Source: Anaerolineae bacterium (GTDB lineage Bacteria; Chloroflexota; Anaerolineae; Promineifilales; Promineifilaceae). From it: a stretch of DNA of 64,000 bases. Numbering within the stretch: position 1 is the first letter of the stretch; each line of letters opens with the position of its first letter. The position numbers and the translations under genes are program-made. The notes under the pieces were generated by a model. The model was not told the DNA's origin and did no database searches. It worked only from the letters and a program-made list of their open reading frames with translations. The stretch covers positions 1-64,000 of the forward strand of contig JAUIAP010000006.1 in the NCBI GenBank assembly GCA_030425205.1, in the 5' to 3' direction. Below, piece after piece: positions 24,110 through 35,879 of this stretch.

Positions 24110-24619
24110 ATGTTAGCGAACCGCCGCACACAAAAATTATTTGCAGCACTCACCAGTTGGCGCATTGTCCAAGCGATGATGCGTATTGCCATACGCGCAA
24201 TCGTGCCGGCCTTTCGGATCGGCGCAGCGGTTGTCGTGTTCAACGAACAGGATGAGATATTGCTGCTTAAACATGCCTATCATGGACGGTATCCATGGGC
24301 GTTGCCGGGTGGCTGGGTTAACCGACGCGAAACGCCAGATGTGGCAGTCGTGCGCGAGTTGCGTGAAGAGACTGGTTTAGCCGCAACGGTCGGGCCAGCC
24401 GTGCTGTTTCTGCGCACGCCACCGGGATTTAGTTTGAACATCTTCTTCGTTGCCACGCAGCCAGAAGGCGAGATTGAACTGAGCTATGAGGCGACAGATT
24501 ATGGCTGGTTTTCGGCCGATTCTCTTCCCACTGCCCAAATGTATCGCAACACGCGCCTTGCCGTTCAAAAGGCGGTCAAGCGTCATCATCAATTGACCAC
24601 GACAGGAGTATTCACATGA
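24110..24619 (+). CDS. Nudix hydrolase
   Basis: A Nudix-fold pyrophosphohydrolase. The 23-residue Nudix box is complete: GWVNRRE at its start, then RELREETGL with the metal-binding glutamates. It is preceded by the strand RIGAAVVVFNEQDEILLLKH and by a basic N-terminus (MLANRRTQKLF). The start is uncertain: in-frame ATGs lie at 24032, 24074, 24095 and 24110; the last has GGGA 9 bases upstream and gives 169 residues. The substrate (nucleoside diphosphate derivative) is not predictable. The stop overlaps the next start as ATGA, so it is translationally coupled to the beta-lactamase-fold gene. Confidence 0.82.
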   Translation: MLANRRTQKLFAALTSWRIVQAMMRIAIRAIVPAFRIGAAVVVFNEQDEILLLKHAYHGRYPWALPGGWVNRRETPDVAVVRELREETGLAATVGPAVLFLRTPPGFSLNIFFVATQPEGEIELSYEATDYGWFSADSLPTAQMYRNTRLAVQKAVKRHHQLTTTGVFT

Positions 24620-26094
24620 GCCACCGGCGATCATCGCCCGGATTCGGTCAGTGGTTACTCGTTACACTGCTGATCACGGGTGTTCTTTTCTTACTTTACC
24701 AACTGTATCAATACAGCTCGGTGCGTGCGAACTTCCCCGAAGGGTTGGAGATTGCCAGCGTTGATGTGGGTGGCATGACCCGTGCTGAGGCGGAGCAAAT
24801 TCTGACCGACCGCTATCTACTCGCCTCTCTGATTCTCTATCATCGTGACGTTCCCATCGAAATACAGCCGACGCAGGCAGAATTTACGCTCGACTTTGCC
24901 AAAATGATGTCAGACGCGGAACAGGAACGACAAGAGCAGGACTTTTGGGCGGGTTTCTGGGGTTATTTGTGGAATCGGCCGATTGACGTAGATCCCGTTC
25001 CCATCGAGTATGATCTCAACCCGGATGCACTGCGCGCGACGATTGGCGTTGTCGCGCAGGAGTTCGACTCACCGGCTGAACCACCAAAACCAAACACGGC
25101 CAATATGACGTTTGAGTATGGTCGGCGTGGCGTTGAGACCAATATCGAGGCAAGCATGGACGACGTGATGGCCGCCTTGTTGCGTCCACGTGACCGCGTC
25201 GCGCATCTTGTGCTTGAGGTGACAGAATCGGCCGATCCTGAAATCGCGCTGCTCAATAGTCTCCTGATTAACAGCGTCCAAGAGTTTGAAATTAGCTCTG
25301 GTGGGGTTGCCAGCCTGTTTGTGGTCGAGCTAAATAGCGGGCGCGAGGTCGTCTATAAACCAAACGTCCCGATGAGTGGAATGGATGTTTTGCGAATTCC
25401 ATTGCTCGTGCAGGCGGTGCGCGTTTTGGGCGAAGATATCCCGTTTGATCAGCAAACGCTGTTGCGCCAAGCGGCAACGGGCATCGATCCCAGCAGCAGC
25501 AATCAACTTTTAACTGTTTTGATTGGCGAAGACACGCCGCTGGCAGCATCACGCATCTTTAATGCAGAGATGCAAAAACTAGGTCTGCGAAACACCTTCA
25601 TCAGTTGCCCCTTTGACCCCGAAACTGAGGTTGGCTGTGAACGCATAGACACGGATGCGAATCTCAACAATGCAAGTCAGGTGACTCCCGACATCTATCG
25701 CCAAACAACGGCCGAAGATATGGGGTTGTTGATGACGATGCTTTATGATTGTGCAGAATCAAATGGGGGCGCATTGCGATTGGTCTATAAAGATCAATTG
25801 TCGCAAGCACAATGCGAGTATGTGCTCGATTTGCTGGCGGAAAATAACATTGACAGCTTGATCGAAGAGGGTGTGCCGAGCGATTTACGCGTCGCCCATC
25901 GGCACGGTTGGCAAACGGATACATACGGTGATGCGGGTATCATCTACACGCCGGGCGGTGACTATGTGATGGTGCAGTTTATGCATAAATCGGGCTGGCT
26001 AGCGTGGGAGATTAGCTCACCACTCATGGCAGATTTGTCACTCGCAACCTATAACTATTTCAATTTTGATGAACCCTATCTATCACAAAGATAA
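24616..26094 (+). CDS. Beta-lactamase-fold membrane protein lacking catalytic residues (pseudoenzyme)
   Basis: A 492-residue protein: membrane helix at 13-30, a YoaR/PG_binding_4-like module (about 40-210, starting IASVDVGGMTRAEAEQIL) and a class A beta-lactamase/serine-hydrolase domain (about 220-490). Aligned with its downstream paralogue, the SxxK nucleophile motif is replaced: Asp257 stands for Ser and Arg260 for Lys in SGMDVLRIP. The KTG-type motif is RHG (429-431), again Lys to Arg. SSN (294-296) is kept. It therefore cannot be a standard serine hydrolase and may bind peptidoglycan or regulate its active neighbour. It overlaps the Nudix stop by 4 bases. Confidence 0.85.
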   Translation: MSHRRSSPGFGQWLLVTLLITGVLFLLYQLYQYSSVRANFPEGLEIASVDVGGMTRAEAEQILTDRYLLASLILYHRDVPIEIQPTQAEFTLDFAKMMSDAEQERQEQDFWAGFWGYLWNRPIDVDPVPIEYDLNPDALRATIGVVAQEFDSPAEPPKPNTANMTFEYGRRGVETNIEASMDDVMAALLRPRDRVAHLVLEVTESADPEIALLNSLLINSVQEFEISSGGVASLFVVELNSGREVVYKPNVPMSGMDVLRIPLLVQAVRVLGEDIPFDQQTLLRQAATGIDPSSSNQLLTVLIGEDTPLAASRIFNAEMQKLGLRNTFISCPFDPETEVGCERIDTDANLNNASQVTPDIYRQTTAEDMGLLMTMLYDCAESNGGALRLVYKDQLSQAQCEYVLDLLAENNIDSLIEEGVPSDLRVAHRHGWQTDTYGDAGIIYTPGGDYVMVQFMHKSGWLAWEISSPLMADLSLATYNYFNFDEPYLSQR

Positions 26095-26102
26095 CCAGCA
26101 GA

Positions 26103-26151
26103 CAGTTTGCAGAAAACGGGACGCATGCCGTTTGTTGCGAACTGCAAACTG
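26103..26151. repeat. Nested inverted repeat before the second beta-lactamase-fold gene
   Basis: CAGTTTGCAG (26103-26112) pairs with CTGCAAACTG (26142-26151), and inside it AAACGG pairs with CCGTTT. The structure ends 5 bases before the next start codon, where a ribosome binding site would be expected and none is seen. It may limit translation of the downstream gene, or be one of the simple-word palindromes common in this genome. Confidence 0.7.
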
Positions 26152-26156
26152 ACAAG

Positions 26157-27749
26157 ATGGCAAAAAAACTATTTCTGCTCCTTCTAATTATCTGCACAGG
26201 CTATGCCGTGCGAGAGGGTTGGTACTTCTTCCTCGAACGGCAGAAGCTGCCCGTTGGGACAACAATAGCGGCGGTCGATGTCGGATTACTGACATTGGAA
26301 GAGGCGGGGCAGCGCGTTGCAGAAACCTATGGACAGCTTGTGACGGTGCATGATCCGATTTCTGACCAATCTGTACAGCTTGCACCAACAGAGCTGGGAT
26401 TTGAGCTCGACCTCGAAAACATGCTGCTTGAAACGGAGCAAAAACAGCTTGAACAAGAGTGGTGGGTTTCATATATTGGCTATCTTTTTCAGCGTCCGTT
26501 TGCGCCGATCACGACACCGCTAAAGGCGCGCCATAATCAGCAACAGGTGCTCGCAGTGACGCACCTATTGGCTGAGAACTTGACGGAGCCAGCGTTGCCG
26601 CCGCGCTTGGAACCAGATACGCTGCGGTTTTTGGATGGGGTGGCGGGATATTCGGCCGAAATCACCCCCACCGCCAAACTAATCAGCGACACGCTCTATT
26701 CACCCGTCAATCGCACGCTCGACTTGGTCATTGTCGAAGAGGATGCGCCTCCCCTTGACTTCGCTCTACTTGAATCCGTGATCCGCGACCAACTATCGCT
26801 CATTCCGGGACTCGCCAGCGTTGTCTTTATTCAAGATTTACAGACAGGGCAAGAGATTGCGATCAACGCCGATGCAGCCGTGAGTGGATTGAGTATCATG
26901 AAGATCCCCATTATTTTAGAGGTATATCGGACGCTCGATGCCGCGCCGGGATTTGAGACACAAAAATTGCTCAACCAGACAATCGTGGAATCGAGCAACT
27001 ATGGAGCGAATCTCCTGCTTGATGTCGTTGCTGGGCAAGATAACGCCTATTTGGGGAGTGATATTTTGACGGAGTCAATGAACCGCTTGGGGTTAGAAAA
27101 TACGTTTATCGTTACACCCTATGAGGAAATTGCACGTCCCACCATTTCAACAAAGTTAACGCCGGCCAACATGCGCGATGATATCTTGATGGATCCCGAC
27201 GTTTCAATGCAGACAACGGCTGAAGAGGTCGGCTCACTGCTTCTGATGCTGCATGATTGCACGCAAGGGGGTGGCGGTTTGCTGCTTGTCTATCCCGACA
27301 CAATCACGCCAGAAGAGTGTCAGGCGATGCTCGACTTGCTGAAGCTCAATCCCGGCGGTGCAGATATGTTGATTGCGGGAATGCCAGAACAACAAGTCAC
27401 ATTTGCGCATAAGCATGGCTATGGCTTTGATATTCATGGTGACGCCGGCATCGTGTATTCGGAGGGTGGCAACTATATTTTTGTCATGTATTTGTCCGAT
27501 CCCGGTGTCGATTGGTTGGTGGCTGATTTAACGTTCCCGGTCATGCAGGAAATTTCACGAATCACCTATAACTATTTCAACGCAGATAACCCCTACTTAG
27601 CAAGGCTGCCGTATGTTGTTTGGAATGAGCAGCAGGCTGCACTCGCGGCTCAAGCAGCAGTTAGCGCGACGCTGACGACGACGCTCGATGCCACCACCGT
27701 CATTACAGATACCGTTCCAGTTGAAGCAGATGCTTCGAATAATCAATAG
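26157..27749 (+). CDS. Beta-lactamase-fold serine hydrolase, catalytic motifs intact
   Basis: Paralogue of the preceding gene, 530 residues: hydrophobic N-terminus (4-18), PG_binding_4-like module (about 30-195) and class A beta-lactamase-type domain (about 205-480). The nucleophile motif SIMK is at 246-249, the SxN motif at 279-281 (SSNYGANLLL) and KHG at 419-421. About 50 C-terminal residues rich in Ala, Thr and Val are extra and look disordered. It likely acts outside the membrane on peptidoglycan peptides or beta-lactams; class A enzymes and low-molecular-mass penicillin-binding proteins both use this fold, and the two cannot be separated here. Followed after 5 bases by the PPDK-like gene, so probably one operon. 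Confidence 0.87.
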   Translation: MAKKLFLLLLIICTGYAVREGWYFFLERQKLPVGTTIAAVDVGLLTLEEAGQRVAETYGQLVTVHDPISDQSVQLAPTELGFELDLENMLLETEQKQLEQEWWVSYIGYLFQRPFAPITTPLKARHNQQQVLAVTHLLAENLTEPALPPRLEPDTLRFLDGVAGYSAEITPTAKLISDTLYSPVNRTLDLVIVEEDAPPLDFALLESVIRDQLSLIPGLASVVFIQDLQTGQEIAINADAAVSGLSIMKIPIILEVYRTLDAAPGFETQKLLNQTIVESSNYGANLLLDVVAGQDNAYLGSDILTESMNRLGLENTFIVTPYEEIARPTISTKLTPANMRDDILMDPDVSMQTTAEEVGSLLLMLHDCTQGGGGLLLVYPDTITPEECQAMLDLLKLNPGGADMLIAGMPEQQVTFAHKHGYGFDIHGDAGIVYSEGGNYIFVMYLSDPGVDWLVADLTFPVMQEISRITYNYFNADNPYLARLPYVVWNEQQAALAAQAAVSATLTTTLDATTVITDTVPVEADASNNQ

Positions 27750-28545: not shown

Positions 28546-30879
28546 ATGTGGCTAGGAATCGACTTTGGCACAACCAACTCCGCCATCTCATTTTCCGATG
28601 GTAATCGTGTCCACACTTTTAAGGTTGACGCGCAACTCCCTAATCTACTGCCATCACTCATCTACGTCTCGAAAAATTTCGAGGATTATGTCGGCACAGC
28701 AGCACGCGATGTCTATTTAGAAAAGAATACAGATCGCCCCTCCTTGTTCAAACCGATCACCGTTGGAACCATTCGCCTCGATGTTGGCGATGCAGGAGGT
28801 TATGCTGAAATTGAGCAGAACGTGATCGTCATGATCGACGTGTTGTCGCCGGGACGGTTGATTCGTTCGATCAAGACGGGCTTACGAACGATGGAGTACA
28901 ACGGTAGTACGATTTTCGGCCGATATTATCGCGTCGAAGAGCTAATCGCGATCCTGCTCAAGCAGCTTGTTACCGTTGTCGAACCGTTAATTGGGGAACC
29001 CGTGACCCAAATTGTCATGGGACGCCCCGTTAAATTTTCTGATAGCGCGATTGTCGATCAGGCGGCCGAAGATCGCATTGTGAAGGCGGCAAAACTGGTC
29101 GGGATTGAGGAAGTCACCTTCTTGCCCGAACCGATTGCTGCGGCGTATGCGTATCATCGGGACTTTGATCGGCCGACTAACACTTTCATTTTCGACTTTG
29201 GGGGCGGGACGCTCGATCTCACGGTGGCCCGGCTTGGTGGCGAAGAACCCGAAATTCTTGCCACTGAGGGCGTGCTGATCGGCGGCGATGATTTTGACAA
29301 ACGACTTTTTGAGTCGCTGCTTCCCCACTTTGGCAAGGGCGCACTCTTGACGATTGAACGGATGGATGGCAGCGTGAGCCAACGGCCGCTCCCAGCACAC
29401 ATCTGGGGCTCACTGCTCGACTGGCAGACAGTTGAGGAGATGAAGCAAACCGACACGCTCGACTTGATCGAAGAGGCGGCGCAAACGGGCAACAGCACCG
29501 ACCCACGCGGCATGCGTGCGCTCTATGAACTTGTCCACCGCAATCTCTACTATAAGCTGCTGCGTCGTGTTGAGGAGGCGAAAGTCGACCTATCGCGTCA
29601 TCCAGAGACGCGACTGCATTTTGACGAGCAGAGTATCCAGATTGATGAAACGATCACGCGGGAACAGTTCGACAGAATGATCAATATGGAGGTTGCCACA
29701 ATTGCCAAGTCGATTGCGCGTGTGCTGGACAACTCGGGATTATCGGCCGATCAGATAGAACAGGTCGTGCCAACTGGCGGCTCATCGCAAATTCCCATAT
29801 TCCAACGCATGTTGCGTGAGACATTTCCAACGGCAACGTTTGCCTCAAAGTCTGACCGCGAAATGACGGGCGTGGTGCAGGGGCTAGGGGTCTATGGCTA
29901 TGATCTCGATGCGAAGACGCAGGACCTTATGCCCCTTATTCGCACGCGCATCTTCGATGAGGCAACCACTGCAACGGTCAAGCTCCCACTGCAAGGGGGC
30001 CAGCGCGAGGAGACAGACGCCTTTTCCCACGCCGTTGCGGGCATCAATACACAAGGTGATGTTGCGCTGATTCCATATAAAGGAGGGAAACAATTGGGTG
30101 AAGATCCACTGGTGCGCGTGCGAAACGCAGTCTTCTCATCGACGGCCGGCAAGGTAATTCTTGGCACGACGCTCTCAAAATTTGTGGTGACAGAGTTGGT
30201 CGACTTACGTGCGATGTCGCAAGATGCAAACCAAACGCCACACCAGCTAAAGCTCAATCGTGAGCGAGCGGAAGAGTTTATCTTTGTCGATAAATGGAAT
30301 CGCGCCGAAACGAAGCGGCTGACGATTTTGGTGACGCGCTACGGCAACGTGCGCGCATTTCAAACACGCTTGGTCGATAAACCGCTACGTGAAGAAGGTG
30401 TCTGGCAGCTTGACATGCGGAATTGGAAGCCCGATCCCCCTGCCGCGTTAATCGGGGCGATGCGCGCCAGCCAGCTCTTGCTGGTCACGGAGGATGGCAA
30501 GGTGACAAAATTGCGCGTCAAAGAAATTTCAGCGCGGGGCAGTAAAGGGCTGAAGCTAACCCATGCGGCTGGGATTCAGGCTATCACGCTCGACCATGGG
30601 ACGCAGGTCATCGTCGTATTTGCCGACGGATCGGCCGAACGTCTTGTGACAACGGATATCCCATTTGCACCAAAATCGGGCAGCGCGGGTCGCCAAAAGT
30701 TTCGTCGCGACGTGCCAATCATTGGGTTACTCCCTGTTGTGGAAAGTGAACACGCACGTGCGATTAGTGATAAGGGTCAAATTGTCGAACTGTTTTTGGG
30801 GGATGTGAAACGATATGGTGGGCAGCATCAGCTTGGCGACATAGATCGAGGCGCAGCGTTAGTGCGTTGCTGGATGTAG
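28546..30879 (+). CDS. Hsp70-family protein with GyrA-CTD-like C-terminal repeats
   Basis: A 777-residue protein. Residues 1-455 are an Hsp70 nucleotide-binding domain of the YegD type: phosphate loop LGIDFGTTNSAIS at 3-15, NTFIFDFGGGTLDLTVARL at 212-230, and VVPTGGSSQIPIFQRML at 407-423, with an insert of about 70 residues near 270-340. The usual substrate-binding domain and lid are absent. Instead residues 480-777 hold about six similar strand-turn-strand units, such as LLLVTEDGKVTKLRVKEI then RGSKGLKL, VIVVFADGSAERL and ARAISDKGQIVELF. These resemble the GyrA C-terminal beta-pinwheel that wraps DNA. The fusion suggests an ATP-dependent protein with nucleic acid or protein-binding propeller; the role is unknown. 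Confidence 0.82.
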   Translation: MWLGIDFGTTNSAISFSDGNRVHTFKVDAQLPNLLPSLIYVSKNFEDYVGTAARDVYLEKNTDRPSLFKPITVGTIRLDVGDAGGYAEIEQNVIVMIDVLSPGRLIRSIKTGLRTMEYNGSTIFGRYYRVEELIAILLKQLVTVVEPLIGEPVTQIVMGRPVKFSDSAIVDQAAEDRIVKAAKLVGIEEVTFLPEPIAAAYAYHRDFDRPTNTFIFDFGGGTLDLTVARLGGEEPEILATEGVLIGGDDFDKRLFESLLPHFGKGALLTIERMDGSVSQRPLPAHIWGSLLDWQTVEEMKQTDTLDLIEEAAQTGNSTDPRGMRALYELVHRNLYYKLLRRVEEAKVDLSRHPETRLHFDEQSIQIDETITREQFDRMINMEVATIAKSIARVLDNSGLSADQIEQVVPTGGSSQIPIFQRMLRETFPTATFASKSDREMTGVVQGLGVYGYDLDAKTQDLMPLIRTRIFDEATTATVKLPLQGGQREETDAFSHAVAGINTQGDVALIPYKGGKQLGEDPLVRVRNAVFSSTAGKVILGTTLSKFVVTELVDLRAMSQDANQTPHQLKLNRERAEEFIFVDKWNRAETKRLTILVTRYGNVRAFQTRLVDKPLREEGVWQLDMRNWKPDPPAALIGAMRASQLLLVTEDGKVTKLRVKEISARGSKGLKLTHAAGIQAITLDHGTQVIVVFADGSAERLVTTDIPFAPKSGSAGRQKFRRDVPIIGLLPVVESEHARAISDKGQIVELFLGDVKRYGGQHQLGDIDRGAALVRCWM

Positions 30880-34520: not shown

Positions 34521-35879
34521 ATGGCTGTTTTACATGAACACGCAAACGACGCGACTCGGGCAACGGCAACTTTTAACTTAAAGGCGGTTGTACAAGAGAC
34601 GGGATTAAAGCCAGACACGTTACGCGCTTGGGAACGTCGCTATGGCATCCCAAACCCTGATCGCACAGCTGGCGGGCATCGTTTATATTCACAAGATGAT
34701 ATCCATCTCTTGAAGTGGCTTGTTGCGCGTCAGGAAGAGGGTTTGAGCATCAGCCGCGCCGTTGACTTATGGCAGCGACTTTTAGATGACAGCAAAAATC
34801 CGTTCAAAGAATTGCCTGTTGAAAGTGCAGAAGAGGGCCCGATTGTAAGAAATGTGGTCCCAGTCGGTGCCACTTTGATCCAAATGCGCGAGGCATGGAT
34901 TGAGGCGTGCATGGCATTTCAGGAACAATCGGCCGAAAATATCCTCAACCAGGCGTTCTCGATGTATTCACCCGAACTGGTCTGCTTTGAACTGTTGCAA
35001 CACGCTCTTTCAGATATCGGTCACAATTGGTACGAGGGCAAGGTCACGGTACAACAAGAGCATTTTGCCTCCGGACTTGCACGACGACGCATTGAAGCAT
35101 TGCTCGTAGGTGCAGCTCCCCCCACCCGTGTCGGTCGCATCCTCATCAGTTGTGCACCAGAGGAAGAACATACTTACTCTTCAATGTTGCTAACCTTATT
35201 GTTGCGGCGACGAGGTTGGGAAGCAACCTATCTCGGCGCAAATGTACCAATGAGTCGTTTAGAAGCAACGATCGCCGCAATTGAGCCAAAGATCGTCATC
35301 TTAACCGCGCAAACGTTGCCGACTGCGGCAACGCTACTCTCGATGGCAGAGCTATTTCGCAAGCAGGGGTTAATGGTTGCGTTTGGCGGACTCGTTTTTA
35401 CACGGCTGCCATTGCTCATTCAGCGCATACCCGGTCACTATCTTGGTGACACATTGCAAGGCTCGCCACAAACGATCGAACAACTCTTGAACACGCCTCG
35501 TCCAATAGGTCACGTTGTGCTGGCAAATGCAACATATCGTGATGCGACGCGCCACTTCACAGAGCGACGGGCAAAGCTCGAGGCGACAGTTGTTGATTTG
35601 TTGAGGGATGAGGAGATCCGGCCAAGTATTCTAAATGCGATCAATTATGATCTAAGCCGTCATATCAGTGCGGCTCTTTCGTTAGGTGATTTGACCTTCT
35701 TGGGGACGAAAATTGCTGAAATTGAAGAGCTTTTGGTTGGACAGTATCAACGGGTGACGCGGGATATTTTCCCACGTTTTTTTGCTTCCTATGCTGCGGC
35801 GACGGCACGAACGCTTGATGATCGAGGCAAGATCATTGTTAATTGGTTCACGACCATTCTGGACAATGCCACTGATTGA
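34521..35879 (+). CDS. CarH/LitR-like B12-dependent light-sensing regulator with extra C-terminal domain
   Basis: A 452-residue transcription factor. An N-terminal MerR helix-turn-helix (about 18-85, LKPDTLRAWERRYGIPNPDRTAGGHRLY) is followed by a B12-binding helical bundle with W170, E180 and H181, matching the W-x9-EH motif that caps adenosylcobalamin in CarH. The B12-binding Rossmann domain has E215-E-H217, where His is the lower axial ligand in CarH. Known CarH proteins repress carotenoid genes in the dark and fall apart in light. About 150 extra C-terminal residues (300-452) are not part of typical CarH and have no recognised family; helical patterns dominate. It is divergent from crtB, the expected target. 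Confidence 0.87.
   Translation: MAVLHEHANDATRATATFNLKAVVQETGLKPDTLRAWERRYGIPNPDRTAGGHRLYSQDDIHLLKWLVARQEEGLSISRAVDLWQRLLDDSKNPFKELPVESAEEGPIVRNVVPVGATLIQMREAWIEACMAFQEQSAENILNQAFSMYSPELVCFELLQHALSDIGHNWYEGKVTVQQEHFASGLARRRIEALLVGAAPPTRVGRILISCAPEEEHTYSSMLLTLLLRRRGWEATYLGANVPMSRLEATIAAIEPKIVILTAQTLPTAATLLSMAELFRKQGLMVAFGGLVFTRLPLLIQRIPGHYLGDTLQGSPQTIEQLLNTPRPIGHVVLANATYRDATRHFTERRAKLEATVVDLLRDEEIRPSILNAINYDLSRHISAALSLGDLTFLGTKIAEIEELLVGQYQRVTRDIFPRFFASYAAATARTLDDRGKIIVNWFTTILDNATD

Follow-up and report, generated by a model that had tools for sequence, protein, structure and literature searches.

Within the window, by which we mean the whole stretch of 64,000 nucleotides analysed, a single open reading frame encodes a protein that joins a YegD-like Hsp70 nucleotide-binding domain (NBD, residues 1 to ~452) to a six-bladed propeller of the GyrA/ParC C-terminal domain (CTD) type (residues ~495-776). 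The propeller stands where the substrate-binding domain (SBD) and lid of an Hsp70 would be. This two-domain architecture is conserved, and in Anaerolineae the same two parts are coupled, either within a single polypeptide or as adjacent genes of a compact operon. The reading frame starts with an ATG, spans 28546-30879 on the forward strand and comprises the following features:

28546..30879, + strand: whole gene, YegD-like Hsp70 NBD plus GyrA/ParC-type propeller, 777 aa (full-length orthologues 51% and 41% identical)
28546..29901, + strand: Hsp70/YegD-like NBD, residues 1-452 (conserved GIDFGTTNS, EPIAAAYAY, DFGGGTLDLTV and TGGSS)
28726..28845, + strand: insert in NBD lobe I, ~residues 61-100, about 40 residues (alignment)
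29902..30027, + strand: linker, residues ~453-494 (mostly pLDDT <50 in AlphaFold2; without a DnaK-type VLLLDVTPL linker)
30028..30081, + strand: propeller blade 1, strands 495-501 and 506-512, completed by the C-terminal strand (AlphaFold2 model)
30118..30195, + strand: propeller blade 2, residues 525-550 (AlphaFold2 model)
30277..30363, + strand: propeller blade 3, residues 578-606, with invariant W584, T597, G600 and R603 (AlphaFold2 model and conservation)
30439..30516, + strand: propeller blade 4, residues 632-657, LLLVTEDGKVTKLRV (AlphaFold2 model; sub-threshold PF03989 match)
30574..30648, + strand: propeller blade 5, residues 677-701 (AlphaFold2 model)
30718..30795, + strand: propeller blade 6, residues 725-750 (AlphaFold2 model)
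30859..30873, + strand: C-terminal closing strand, residues 772-776 (AlphaFold2 model)

The two domains of the window protein

Profile searches matched the N-terminal half of the protein to Pfam HSP70 (PF00012; E 1.1e-36, 126.7 bits against a cut-off of 20.6), and the best NCBIfam match was NF008673 (YegD, PRK11678; E 6.5e-37). Since the score of the latter, 127.4 bits, lies well under the equivalog cut-off of 331 bits, the domain is YegD-like but not YegD. Alignment with the two DnaKs of the same genome revealed intact phosphate and adenosine motifs (GIDFGTTNS, the E of EPIAAA, DFGGGTLD and TGGSS), together with the K and S of VEEAKVDLS; the nucleotide pocket is thus conserved. These motifs render ATP-driven action plausible. 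Real ATP turnover is nonetheless uncertain, because the position of DnaK K70, the catalytic lysine required for hydrolysis, is occupied by R in the window protein and by V, I, L or T in most relatives. DnaK R167 and N170, which contact J-proteins, are replaced by T and P. The alignment revealed no VLLLDVTPL interdomain linker, and the propeller was found instead of a substrate β-sandwich and lid. The lobe I insert is common to Chloroflexota YegD-like proteins, whether fused, split or alone, and is missing from proteobacterial YegD-like proteins and DnaK in the same alignment. With an Hsp70 NBD as its N-terminal half, the protein has no type IIA topoisomerase A core (winged-helix/tower, active-site Tyr).

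The C-terminal part was modelled with AlphaFold2 on residues 456-777 along with 14 homologous C-termini, which yielded six blades, five of them three-stranded and the first completed by the C-terminal closing strand (pLDDT 81.1, pTM 0.80). When this model was compared with the PDB by Foldseek, all 20 matches at E ≤ 1e-3 were GyrA or ParC CTDs (best 4g3n, E 1.3e-13; 1suu, TM 0.65/0.70), with other β-propellers appearing only at E ≥ 0.1. Sequence comparisons pointed the same way: TIGR01063 (gyrA) matched the isolated stretch 29980-30876 across profile positions 539-776 (E 2.2e-7), and the single match of a PDB sequence search was the Aquifex GyrA CTD (0.0045). PF03989 remained sub-threshold in the window protein (0.0076, below the gathering score), so Pfam by itself would miss the propeller. 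In profile-profile alignment (hhalign), the family matched same-order GyrA CTDs at 96.9% (E 1.9e-10) and ParC-type CTDs at 96.2%, as against at most 0.3% for column-shuffled GyrA controls. When 400 genomes of the phylum were searched with a profile built from the fused C-termini, the matches were mostly ORFs of 800-1400 aa, to E 2.9e-21; the best 27 matches outside the family, one excepted, are 43-58% identical to the GyrA of this organism and hence bona fide GyrA/ParC proteins. A single-sequence scan of the genome contigs with the C-terminal domain gave no match, because the domain is too divergent for exact patterns, and the family alignment search succeeded. The propeller is thus homologous to GyrA/ParC CTDs.

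A sequence-only reading of this DNA had proposed an Hsp70 NBD in the first 455 residues and a GyrA-CTD-like propeller in place of the substrate domain. The former is borne out by the HSP70 and NF008673 matches and the latter by the model, its Foldseek matches and TIGR01063; structure prediction, suggested as the check for a non-propeller fold, returned a propeller. The motif LLLVTEDGKVTKLRV ... RGSKGLKL, quoted there for its resemblance to GyrA/ParC blades, corresponds to blade 4, and the C-terminal location of the propeller was right, with its start shifting from residue 479 to slightly further inside, at ~495.

Two other types of YegD-like Hsp70 came up in these searches. The same genome encodes a second, divergent one of 449 aa (G000:C98:10204-11553; loci L002 and L072), with no propeller attached or nearby. 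A further clade, of 600-636 aa (L114, L118, L119, L125, L126, L128 and L129), carries a different conserved, β-rich C-terminal extension of ~160 residues, which matched no credible Pfam family and gave a sub-threshold tudor match in one of three members tested.

Fused and split forms across Chloroflexota

An ORF of the fused type (680 aa or longer) is present in 37 of the 56 genomes of the order. The closest full-length orthologue, 51% identical, lies in another genus (G025), which identifies the window ORF as a real gene rather than a frame artefact; the second, in G018, is 41% identical. A wider family of fused proteins, 770-830 aa long and 26-30% identical to the window protein over their full length, extends throughout the order, and G018 holds both fused types. 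Across the class (249 genomes), two families, f1 and f129, supplied the best full-length matches of the fused type. G007, 90% complete and the only further genome from the window's genus, lacks a gene of this kind.

Retrieval with the family alignment provided 80 named loci, 14 of them fused and another 14 with a propeller gene that directly precedes the Hsp70 gene in the same orientation; the remaining 52, including every non-Chloroflexota locus, have an Hsp70 without a detected propeller. In other Anaerolineae, the split form consists of two closely spaced genes of the same orientation; the propeller gene comes first, whereas in the fusion the propeller is the second domain. Many of these pairs overlap by 4 bp (e.g. 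L101, L102, L103 and L104), and two further pairs occur within the window's own order, in family f2 (L069 and L070). A class-wide search showed each of the six best stand-alone propellers to have an NBD-encoding ORF near it (directly adjacent in five cases, ~1.2 kb away in one), which the weaker matches of L200-L213 do not have. The split propeller protein, of ~390 aa, is predicted to contain an N-terminal hairpin of two long helices followed by a GyrA-type propeller (pLDDT 79.6), for which Foldseek again retrieved only GyrA/ParC CTDs; split and fused propellers matched each other at 99.3% (E 2.9e-20). Recurrence in both fused and operon form makes an accidental pairing unlikely. The survey of the domain pair in Chloroflexota that had been suggested from the sequence finds it across the phylum, in one gene or, as the sequence-only reading had not foreseen, in a two-gene operon. 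Beyond the pair itself, neighbourhood comparison revealed no gene recurring across loci, and a pathway reading from neighbours was rejected on this ground.

Given this distribution, it is exceedingly improbable that the feature is an assembly artefact, a chance fusion or an over-reading of weak similarity. Such an explanation could appeal to the sub-threshold score of PF03989 by itself, but the fusion is kept in dozens of genomes, including an assembly of three contigs (G032), an operon form exists, and the AlphaFold2 model and Foldseek agree.

The NBD and propeller trees differ as to the origin of the fusion. In NBD trees, the window protein, L010, L011 and L133 form a clade of their own, outside the main fused clade of 23 members; a single fused clade was disfavoured (AU p 0.029), and union of the four-member subfamily with the fused-plus-split group was not rejected (AU p 0.14). 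In the propeller tree, all fused propellers group together (SH-aLRT 92). Fusion may accordingly have happened once or twice. An AU test on the fused and split members alone (p 4e-6) was discarded, as three stand-alone rows nest inside that group.

Protein docking versus DNA binding by the propeller

DNA wrapping requires a GyrA box (PMC10342825). This QRRGGKG-like motif was absent from fused and split members alike in three alignments (0/17, 0/15 and 0/15 members), which amount to 47 rows in all, with the window protein and a few loci recurring. Other DNA contacts were gauged by the 32 positions at which 80% or more of the same-order GyrA CTDs carry a basic residue. Fused propellers retain 29% and split ones 24% of them, ParC 46% and stand-alone box-bearing CTDs 52%, figures that are indicative only because the underlying alignment is at 12-18% identity. 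Net charge (+10 in the window propeller, -5 to +10 among fused members, mostly negative in split ones) is uninformative for DNA binding because same-order GyrA CTDs are near neutral themselves. Weak DNA binding is possible, since the basic hairpin positions K545, R603, K655 and R721 are kept and ParC CTDs bind DNA despite having no GyrA box. The ParC CTD also binds the MukB hinge, a precedent for the fold as a protein-docking surface (PMC3950513), and the structure of that complex, 4mn4, is among the Foldseek matches of the window propeller. With moderate confidence, the missing box, the few GyrA-basic positions kept and the MukB precedent argue for protein docking over DNA wrapping; the loss of most of those positions and of the box, in fused and split forms, speaks against wrapping as the default function, the sequence-only reading having offered DNA wrapping or protein binding.

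A DNA-directed role in another guise would have the propeller bind or bend DNA like the GyrA CTD or Borrelia Gac, its loading being regulated by the Hsp70 ATPase, so that the whole would act as an ATP-controlled nucleoid protein. We consider this unlikely. The homology is indeed to a DNA-wrapping domain, the window propeller has its charge of +10, the four hairpin positions hold a basic residue in 88% or more of the fused members and, for the most part, in GyrA as well, and Borrelia has a free GyrA CTD that binds DNA (PMC10127594). However, no member has the GyrA box, retention in both forms falls short of that in ParC, the charge goes down to -5 in fused members and is mostly negative in split ones, and the same organisms already own a separate, GyrA-box-bearing stand-alone CTD.

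The gene for the latter in this genome encodes a GyrA-type propeller protein of 372 aa (PF03989, 6.6e-25; G000:C34:127830-128687, L082:4600-5718). It occurs in many Anaerolineae, unlinked to Hsp70, has relatives with a GyrA-box-like QRRGGMG and recalls Borrelia Gac, likewise a free GyrA CTD. Besides this stand-alone CTD, the genome encodes a second GyrA/ParC-type protein. The idea that gyrase had lost its CTD to the window gene was rejected, as the genome has an intact GyrA with its GyrA box.

A putative ATP switch and its relation to known systems

We propose that an actin-fold, Hsp70/YegD-like ATP-binding switch may be combined here with target recognition by a repurposed type IIA topoisomerase C-terminal propeller. 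The ATP/ADP state of the NBD would control engagement of the propeller with its target, as the NBD does over the substrate domain in classical Hsp70, and this target would more probably be a protein, docked as the MukB hinge is on the ParC CTD, than wrapped DNA. The switch would likely be slow and J-protein-independent, a notion with which the alignment is consistent, the J-protein contact residues and the DnaK interdomain linker being absent. Among the loci compared, no conserved neighbour names a pathway. We infer, with our expectation evenly balanced, that the function is that of an ATP-switched module whose topoisomerase-type propeller docks a protein partner.

Two other readings keep the ATPase and change the partner. 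In one, the propeller mimics the GyrA/ParC CTD and the Hsp70-like ATPase docks on, assembles or inhibits type IIA topoisomerases or their regulators; homology to both GyrA and ParC CTDs and the membership of the ATPase domain in a chaperone superfamily would suit it, but the neighbourhoods contain no gyrA, gyrB, parC or parE linkage and gyrase CTDs do not mediate subunit assembly, which makes it improbable. A conventional chaperone, with the propeller as an alternative SBD for unfolded clients, seems to us very improbable: the propeller does occupy the SBD position, and Hsp70 NBDs operate together with a substrate part that follows them in the chain, yet split versions carry the propeller on a separate protein, the DnaK linker and J-protein contacts are missing, YegD-like relatives work without an SBD, and no co-chaperone genes lie nearby. 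More broadly than the protein-docking module that we prefer, the pair might, though we hold this doubtful, constitute a hitherto undescribed Chloroflexota ATP-driven machine in which a propeller in cis or trans is cycled by the Hsp70 switch and acts on the chromosome or on topology/segregation proteins. If true, this would be the first chaperone-type ATPase to use a topoisomerase domain as effector.

The propeller shares with the GyrA/ParC CTD (PF03989 β-pinwheel) the six-bladed fold, the blade motif [LIV]xTxxGxxxR and matches in profile and structure, but its partner, on the same chain or a separate one, is an Hsp70 NBD, and it lacks a topoisomerase core, the GyrA box and most DNA-contact basic positions. 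The NBD has YegD-type lobes and motifs, and differs from YegD, treated as a presumed HSP70 chaperone in the accessible part of the literature, in scoring far below the cut-off and in its Chloroflexota insert and C-terminal propeller. With DnaK and classical Hsp70 it shares the ATP-binding actin fold and the phosphate and adenosine motifs, but not the β-sandwich SBD, lid, linker, K70 or J-protein contacts. Like the split form, Borrelia Gac is a GyrA-type propeller made as a free protein; Gac, however, arises from an internal gyrA promoter and binds DNA (PMC10127594), whereas the split propeller has a diverged gene of its own, partnered with an Hsp70 gene, and carries helices at its N-terminus. 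The Hsp70s of GAP1-N2 GTPase systems similarly have an Hsp70 domain without the peptide-binding part, but are linked to GTPase conflict genes (PMC7159879), a context that the loci studied here do not have.

In openly searchable full-text literature, we found no description of an Hsp70 paired with a GyrA/gyrase propeller and no known family with this combination, in line with the new architecture claimed from the sequence; a PF00012 plus PF03989 listing in InterPro may exist. Hsp70 relatives are known by what follows their ATPase domain, which is here exchanged for a domain otherwise from topoisomerases. The fusion and operon pairing offers a handle on the function of SBD-less YegD-like Hsp70s, and the split form, being two separate proteins, is suited to the study of nucleotide-dependent binding.

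Elsewhere in the window, two tandem Beta-lactamase2 genes (PF13354; 492 and 530 aa; 24616-27749) lie upstream of the fused gene on the same strand, and a MerR regulator with B12-binding domains (CarH-like; 34521-35879) is likely a light- or B12-responsive repressor.
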